Part shown: in pieces, positions 27,494 to 28,254 of the stretch | Layout of the letters: each line of letters opens with the position of its first letter | Position numbering within the stretch: position 1 is the stretch's first letter | Source of the DNA: Halomarina pelagica | GTDB lineage: Archaea > Halobacteriota > Halobacteria > Halobacteriales > Haloarculaceae | Reading direction: 5' to 3' | Assembly (NCBI RefSeq): GCF_024228315.1 | Contig: NZ_CP100454.1 | Span: 1,612,001-1,676,000 of the forward strand | DNA: 64,000 bases | Notes under the pieces: generated by a model | What the model was told of the DNA's origin: nothing | Database searches by the model: none | What the model saw: only the letters and a program-made list of their open reading frames with translations | Made by a program: the position numbers and the translations under genes

Positions 27494-27549
27494 GGCGTCC
27501 CGGCAGGAGTCGAACCTGCGGACGGATTCCCGACCGGCGGGCGGAACGC
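27494..27549 (-). ncRNA. tRNA-like element A (acceptor-like stem plus T-arm)
   Basis: On the minus strand, GCGTTCCG (27549-27542) pairs over eight bases (one G-U) with CGGGACGC (27502-27495). Just inside the 3' strand is a perfect T-arm: GCAGG, loop TTCGACT, CCTGC (27519-27503). Between the two lie only 22 bases, which can form CCCG-CCGGT-CGGG. There is no D-arm or normal anticodon arm, so it is not an ordinary tRNA. A hairpin, GACCCCGA / TCGGGTC (27574-27552), lies just upstream and overlaps the stop of the small gene 27573-27848. It could be a tRNA-like element processed by RNase P/Z, a tRNA remnant, or an attachment-site scar. Confidence 0.5.
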
Positions 27550-27572
27550 GCGACCCGAGTTCTCGATCGGGG

Positions 27573-27848
27573 TCACGCCTCCGCCTCCACCGTCGCCTCG
27601 ATGACGCCGAAGCCCGCTTCGAGGTCGGCGGCCTCCGCGTCGGCGACGAGCGCGACCTCCGCGAGGAGGTCGACGCGGATGTCCGTCGCCGTGGGGCGAA
27701 AGCCGCGGACGTCGAGCGAGTCGACGCGTTCGATCGCCGCTACGCCTTCGAGGACGCTCCGCGCGCCGCCGGCGAGGTCGCCTGCGGCACCGCGGGGCAC
27801 CCAGAGCCTGACGGCCACCGACGTGGCCGCGAGTTCATGCAGGGGCAT
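27573..27848 (-). CDS. Small hypothetical protein bracketed by tRNA-like elements
   Basis: A 91-residue acidic protein, MPLHELAATSVAVRLWVPRG to IEATVEAEA, with alternating beta strands and helices (SLDVRGFRPTATDIRVDLLAEVAL). It looks like a genuine haloarchaeal product. A longer frame starting at 27980 runs through the tRNA-like structure and is rejected. The ATG is two bases after the 3' end of element B, and its stop is within the hairpin before element A. I do not recognise the family. Confidence 0.6.
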   Translation of the reverse strand: MPLHELAATSVAVRLWVPRGAAGDLAGGARSVLEGVAAIERVDSLDVRGFRPTATDIRVDLLAEVALVADAEAADLEAGFGVIEATVEAEA

Positions 27849-27850
27849 GA

Positions 27851-27929
27851 GGCGTCCGCCGGGGGTCGAACCCGGAGCGTGGCCGTTCCACGCGGACGCG
27901 GCCCACTGCGCGAGTCGCGGTGACTCGCG
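27851..27929 (-). ncRNA. tRNA-like element B (acceptor-like stem plus T-arm)
   Basis: On the minus strand, GCGTCCG (27899-27893) pairs perfectly with CGGACGC (27858-27852). Inside is a hairpin, CGTGG-AACGG-CCACG (27892-27878), and a perfect T-arm: CCGGG, loop TTCGACC, CCCGG (27875-27859). The element is 49 bases with a discriminator-like C at 27851. Upstream lies a perfect 8-bp hairpin, CGCGAGTC-ACCGC-GACTCGCG (27929-27909). Cleavage after 27851 by tRNase Z would leave just two bases before the ATG at 27848. The architecture matches element A, but the sequences are not copies of each other. Confidence 0.5.
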
Positions 27930-28254
27930 TCTGCTCGCGAAGACTGATGTCGGGGAGAACGCTAGCGCACTCGGTCCCACCCGACACCGTCCGGACGGGG
28001 CGTCGCCGTCCGGTTACGCGAGACGGGTGGACCGAGTGCAGCGGTGCTTCGCCGCGTCGACCACGTACCCCCCGCTGACCGGGACAGCGAGCGTCGGGAT
28101 GTGGTTGAACGCGGTCATGGACGAGCACCGGCGCCCTGAGTCGGGCGCGTGGCACGTCCTCTCGTATCGGCGGCACCCTCTTAGTCGTTGTGTAGGATTG
28201 ACACGAAGTGACACACCCCGGCGCTTTTCGTCGTCGGGCGCGGTGTCACGGCAC
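27930..28254. other. Gap without a supported gene
   Basis: These 325 bases separate element B from the alpha/beta hydrolase gene. Open frames here have no protein-like features. An 8-base C/G-rich inverted repeat (around CCGTCCGGACGG, about 27987) and a short AT-poor promoter region before 28255 are all that I see. Confidence 0.4.

Follow-up and report, generated by a model that had tools for sequence, protein, structure and literature searches.

tRNA-like elements as probable processing signals

The punctuation of transcripts by tRNAs or tRNA-like elements was reportedly described for animal mitochondria (Ojala et al. 1981), and it is also known, in haloarchaea, from the 5S rRNA. The enzymes concerned, RNase P and tRNase Z, mainly read the T-arm/acceptor half of a tRNA, and haloarchaea translate leaderless mRNAs well. 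Beyond the element at the 5S rRNA, 47 further t-elements have reportedly been predicted in Haloferax volcanii (Hoelzle et al. 2012), and those tested in vitro are said to have stayed uncut, which indicates that a tRNA-like fold alone is insufficient. In H. volcanii, tRNase Z cleaves the t-element that precedes the 5S rRNA (Hoelzle 2008, 2012, cited in PMC4326828). In the same species, RNase P and tRNase Z release, in vivo, a crRNA flanked by two t-elements (PMC4326828). In the literature covered, which was incomplete, we found no conserved case in which an archaeal mRNA is punctuated by tRNA-like elements.

Here, we analyzed a 64-kb stretch of the Halomarina pelagica genome (the window), in which a gene for a 91-aa protein lies between two tRNA-like elements, B upstream and A downstream. 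As in mitochondria, tRNA-like units stand right before an ORF, and mRNAs freed by their excision would be near-leaderless and have fixed ends; however, the organism is an archaeon, in most genera the units are not functional tRNAs, and one locus is concerned rather than a whole genome. The arrangement also resembles the engineered t-element–crRNA–t-element cassette of H. volcanii, in which RNase P and tRNase Z free a bracketed insert in vivo (PMC4326828, PMC4946936). In contrast to that man-made cassette, A and B are natural, and their stem sequences are unrelated to each other.

A minimal t-element, CCGATAGTGGTCCTTAGCGTGGTTCGATTCCACGAATCGGCG, is also present directly upstream of the 5S rRNA in the same genome (L242, about 1618-1662). 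It has a 5-bp stem, an insert of ~12 nt, the T-arm CGTGG/TTCGATT/CCACG and 2 nt to the 5' end of the 5S rRNA, and it was identified by eye, having been missed by the covariance model CM R1 (see below). This element shares with A and B the acceptor-like stem with a TTCRA T-arm, the near absence of D and anticodon arms, and, if the mRNA of the 91-aa gene begins close to its ATG, the position directly before the mature product. However, at the locus studied here the putative product is an mRNA that codes for a protein, the stems have 7-8 bp and are thus longer, several genera carry a further element downstream, and cleavage is presumed.

Structure of the two elements

The features of the locus are listed in Table 1. 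Read directly from the sequence, the acceptor of B pairs GCGTCCG (27899-27893) with CGGACGC (27858-27852), encloses an insert, CGTGGAACGGCCACGCT, with a single hairpin inside, and passes without a gap into a perfect T-arm, CCGGG/TTCGACC/CCCGG (5-bp stem, 7-nt loop). The 3' strand of the acceptor is followed by a discriminator-like C27851, by TC, and then by the ATG at 27848, which leaves a gap of 2 nt before the 91-aa gene, just as the sequence-only reading had stated. The minimum free energy structure of B predicted by RNAfold was exactly the one described, with a z-score of -0.5, which is ordinary for such a GC-rich sequence. A strong hairpin that had been noticed upstream of B was found in its place as well, with CGCGAGTC pairing to GACTCGCG; the genus alignment showed that its sequence varies within the genus and is not conserved.

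Element A starts 23 nt past the stop codon of the gene. Its acceptor pairs GCGTTCCG (27549-27542) with CGGGACGC (27502-27495), one pair being G-U, and adjoins without a gap the T-arm GCAGG/TTCGACT/CCTGC, which has a perfect 5-bp stem. In the minimum free energy structure of A (z +0.9), the acceptor and the T-arm were retained, and the inner hairpin was ambiguous. Thus, of the original description of both elements as an acceptor, a T-arm and one inner hairpin, the acceptor and T-arm of both and the hairpin of B hold, but the inner part of A stays ambiguous. With such z-scores in GC-rich DNA, folding energy is no evidence for either element, and geometry and conservation are needed. As to geometry, the acceptor-like stem of both A and B leads directly into a 5-bp T-arm with a TTCRA loop, which is the mark of a t-element.

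Table 1. Positions of the features of the locus in the window.
Feature	Positions	Strand	Remarks
Element B, mini tRNA-like element	27851..27899	minus	7-bp acceptor, single inner hairpin, 5-bp T-arm with TTCGACC loop
Element A, second tRNA-like element	27494..27549	minus	acceptor 8 bp, T-arm 5 bp with TTCGACT loop
ORF1, 91-aa gene, family unnamed	27573..27848	minus	conserved in the order; no Pfam/NCBIfam match
Hairpin CGCGAGTC ACCGC GACTCGCG	27909..27929	minus	just upstream of B
Long leader hairpin CACTCGGTCCACCCG...CGGGTGGGACCGAGTG	27968..28038	minus	encloses the stop codon of the upstream ORF
Candidate upstream ORF, MTAFNHIPTLAVPVSGGYVVDAAKHRCTRSTRLA and stop	28014..28118	minus	small ORFs at the same place in most distinct loci

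Specificity of the elements

A strict geometric scan of both strands, which required a 5-bp T stem, a TTC[AG]A loop and a 7-nt acceptor within 70 nt, found only B, A, the genuine tRNA-Tyr and one weak match in the window, and 0 matches in the reversed window. The strand positions not covered by called tRNAs, 678 kb in total, held 30 full elements, and 27 of these were A or B of the 91-aa gene in various genomes. Similarly, when CM R1, which was built on B, was run over the entire 4.6-Mb genome, its matches were B with 50.6 bits (E 2.9e-5), A with 24.4 bits and one weak candidate, and no others. Across 59 genomes of the order, its best matches lay again at the locus of the 91-aa gene, and the few extra matches in other genomes were mostly real tRNAs. 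This concentration at one locus indicates that the elements belong to the 91-aa gene and are not a general device; a genome-wide use of such elements was rejected on the same counts in the H. pelagica genome.

Known RNA classes did not account for A and B. Neither ARAGORN nor the Rfam model RF00005 called them tRNAs in the window, where the known tRNA-Tyr alone was called. A canonical tRNA gene was also rejected on structure, as the full cloverleaf with D and anticodon arms is absent from both elements in the window and present only in few relatives. The possibility of a tmRNA was discarded because ARAGORN and Rfam gave no tmRNA match in the window, and no other Rfam family was matched in the window.

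Separately from the locus of the 91-aa gene, we observed a candidate tRNA-like element of ~43 nt (L215, G040:C2:115758-115805) that ends in CT-ATG before an unrelated gene (MSSEGAFLRHRLPGDVTPVDLERLLWG..). The product of this gene looks like a membrane protein.

Conservation and covariation across the order

The gene for the 91-aa protein was present in 106 of the 194 sampled genomes of the order and in 38 of 64 genera, the named organisms with this family including Halocatena, Actinarchaeum, Haloarcula, Halosimplex and Halomicrobium. The same position carried a TTC[AG]A T-loop in 84 of 104 distinct loci, and the 5-bp stem was perfect in 62 of these. All loci with the T-loop (84/84) had the G53-C61 pair typical of tRNAs, which was no condition of the search. 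Moreover, the distance from the end of B to the ATG was 2-5 nt in 81 of 82 distinct B elements (2 nt in 43, 3 in 25, 4 in 8 and 5 in 5), and in the lone exception an in-frame ATG follows after 2 nt. Inside the elements, neither length nor sequence is conserved.

In a set of 32 diverse B elements, 95.3% of the cells of the alignment were paired, as compared with 74.6% after shuffling and 41-51% with slid partners, and 11 of the 12 pairs had changed on both sides. For A (17 elements), the corresponding values were 95.9%, 84.1% and 37-58%, with changes on both sides in 7 of 12 pairs. The 5' strand of the acceptor was taken as the best pairing within 70 nt, a choice that flatters its pairing and that the T-arm does not share; when the 3' strands were permuted among loci, a score of at least 6 was reached in 44% (observed, 87%), and full pairing in 4% (observed, 35%). 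Clearly, A and B are real, conserved and covarying tRNA-like elements. Both conservation and compensatory change, on which the sequence-only reading had staked itself, were thus found in many genera. An origin of the elements as a tRNA-integration scar (att site) predicts that the 3' part alone stems from a tRNA and that the 5' strand pairs by chance, without covariation, and was rejected because both acceptor strands covary in B as well as in A.

The two elements are not equally widespread, as B occurred in about 82 distinct loci and A in about 23. The view of the gene as bracketed by two elements is therefore valid for the H. pelagica locus and for part of the order only; elsewhere A was not detected, and B is far more widely conserved. 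In one clade (g37, L102-L132), the TTCGA T-arm of B itself is lost. An acceptor-like stem is kept in 9 of 16 loci of this clade, and there it is separated from the ATG by 10-69 nt of C/A-rich RNA. Such a lengthening would follow if the 5' end had been set by a cut that depends on the T-arm. At the same time, the gene is kept in g37 without the T-arm, which indicates that the element is not indispensable.

Probable role in mRNA processing

We consider it probable that A and B are t-elements that punctuate a polycistronic transcript and yield a near-leaderless mRNA, the cleavage being suggested by their structure, covariation and position. The transcript would begin upstream of a ~300-nt leader holding a small ORF. 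In this transcript, B would fold into an acceptor stem and a T-arm, and tRNase Z would cut just 3' of the acceptor, after about C27851, to give an mRNA for the 91-aa protein with a 5' leader of ~2 nt, from which the protein would be translated. Because such a cut would leave 2 nt before the AUG, we refer to the mRNA as near-leaderless and not as leaderless. Where A exists, it would be cut on the 5' side by RNase P, at about 27550, and on the 3' side by tRNase Z; these cuts would define the 3' end of the mRNA and, in some genera, also the 5' end at which another small ORF begins. Probably, the elements derive from array tRNA genes that lost the D and anticodon arms and kept the acceptor/T-arm half for both enzymes.

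The leader upstream of B had gone unmentioned in the earlier reading. Small ORFs occur in it in most distinct loci, and their C-terminus is conserved (xAA or PTA before the stop), as in STLAA, SVRAA, VRPTA and TRLA. The stop codon of the small ORF lies inside a long hairpin, and an analogous hairpin was found in another family. The leader leaves room for a regulatory reading. On average, the ~330 nt before the ATG hold no AT-rich promoter-like stretch, and the AT content is raised only at -340 to -400. Hence, B should be internal to the transcript.

Several observations count against punctuation, namely the predicted H. volcanii t-elements that reportedly stayed uncut, the presence of the A–B bracket in only part of the order, the persistence of the gene in the g37 clade without the T-arm, and the choice of the best-pairing acceptor strand. 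If A and B are nevertheless cut, the locus would represent a natural, order-wide conserved tRNA-like punctuation of archaeal mRNA, and, next to transcripts that start at the AUG, there would be a second way to a leaderless mRNA. Additionally, the series from complete array tRNAs to minimal elements can show which parts of a tRNA RNase P and tRNase Z need in vivo. An extension of this reading, which we regard as rather improbable, is that the expression of the 91-aa protein depends on the free capacity of RNase P and tRNase Z, with the domesticated mini-tRNAs serving as the substrates of a processing sensor. A flood of tRNA precursors, e.g., upon the expression of a mobile tRNA array, would then block the release of the mRNA, which would be a new kind of regulation.

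Two further features of the surroundings of the elements were observed. A short motif, AGAG[AG]CATC, occurs upstream of B in several families (L014, L098, L101, L137, L028, L125-L131 and others). In Haloarcula and relatives (L022, L092, L094, L096, L099, L014 and L089), a tiny arginine-rich ORF of ~30 aa (e.g., MHRIYLAAVISRRRRDSKNKAQSRRTRRL) begins 9-28 nt after A.

The 91-aa protein and a possible operator function of the elements

Searches with Pfam, NCBIfam and PDB profiles gave nothing significant on the function of the 91-aa protein, and no relatives that would point to a viral origin of its gene were found in IMG/VR or in the phage collection. The single-sequence prediction of its fold was poor, and the prediction with AlphaFold2 on 22 relatives was good, giving a predicted ferredoxin-like fold (beta-alpha-beta-beta-alpha-beta, pLDDT 82.7). 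With this model, Foldseek gave no match under E 0.001, and VIA-align gave Z-scores below 8 to the common ferredoxin-like arrangement. The structural neighbours of the predicted fold form the common ferredoxin-like set (S6, EF-1beta, ACT domains), with no decisive match among them. The EF-1beta-type fold (Z 5.9) was one of many tied ferredoxin-like folds, and by sequence profile the 91-aa protein did not match aEF-1beta (PF00736), as it had no Pfam match. Judging from the context, one may guess at an RNA- or translation-related role, and the locus would offer a first point of entry to this unnamed family and its link with tRNA arrays and Ro60.

In a different mechanism, the elements would be bound and not cut. 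ThrRS of E. coli binds a tRNA-mimicking leader of its own mRNA and in this way autoregulates its translation. Likewise, B (and A) might act as an operator by tRNA mimicry, through which the 91-aa protein or a tRNA-binding factor regulates its own translation. B abuts the start codon, so that binding would block initiation, and an upstream ORF that terminates within a hairpin is suggestive of control at the level of translation. Moreover, the 91-aa family is tied to tRNA arrays, and many RNA-binding proteins are found among ferredoxin-like folds such as the one predicted. However, an operator needs neither a distance of 2-5 nt nor the T-arm identities seen in G53-C61, A is positioned where it cannot block the initiation of ORF1, and no fold match was specific to an RNA-binding family. 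We consider an operator unlikely.

tRNA arrays and the origin of the elements

The processing reading, in which A and B descend from tRNAs, was compared with what stands at their positions in relatives. In a few of these, nearly complete tRNAs are found in place of A and B. At one locus (L025), A scored 61.4 bits with the Rfam tRNA model and was called tRNA-Tyr, and B was called tRNA-Arg. In another genome (G111), the order on one strand is tRNA-Gln, B, the gene, A, tRNA-Trp, tRNA-Glu and tRNA-Lys, followed by a TROVE gene, and ARAGORN calls B tRNA-Glu and A tRNA-Pro. A distant paralogue of the 91-aa protein, annotated as hypothetical in Halorussus limi and Natrinema versiforme, is encoded in about a dozen genomes ~70-160 nt past the last tRNA, tRNA-Gly (GCC), of arrays of 13-31 tRNAs, and it also adjoins a TROVE gene.

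That tRNA clusters of haloarchaea can contain TROVE genes has been described before (Morgado and Vicente 2019, PMC6333295), and such arrays are associated with mobile elements (PMC6333295). The distant paralogue after the last tRNA, with TROVE beside it, conforms to these clusters, as does the 91-aa type itself in the G111 cluster. In contrast, the window holds no array, the H. pelagica genome no TROVE gene, and the locus two reduced elements only. The 91-aa family is thus tied to tRNA arrays, and A and B look like array tRNAs of which the acceptor and the T-arm are left. It is likely, as read from an unrooted series of sequences, that tRNAs were the starting point and mini elements the outcome.

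The proximity to TROVE could also mean that A and B are small functional ncRNAs (Y-RNA-like RNAs or tRNA decoys), which would form an RNP with the 91-aa protein, the gene and its RNA partner being co-encoded. In support of that, the distant paralogues adjoin TROVE/Ro60 genes in tRNA arrays, and the bacterial Y RNA YrlA, which has a tRNA-like domain (PMC7790460), provides a parallel. However, 5 of the 10 genomes tested for the TROVE gene lack it, the H. pelagica genome has none (PF05731), and the inner part of the elements varies in both length and sequence. As Rfam gave no Y RNA match at the gathering score either, a bacterial-type Y RNA (YrlA) was rejected, and the ncRNA function in general appears improbable to us. 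It is very unlikely that A and B are decaying tRNA relics of arrays or integration events with no present function. Although nearly complete tRNAs stand at the same positions in some relatives and mobile elements are associated with arrays (PMC6333295), relics are not expected to keep a constant distance to the ATG or to show, from family to family, changes in both stems that compensate each other.

The distant paralogues were found at the loci L222-L234, L237, L240 and L241, several of which lie on plasmids.
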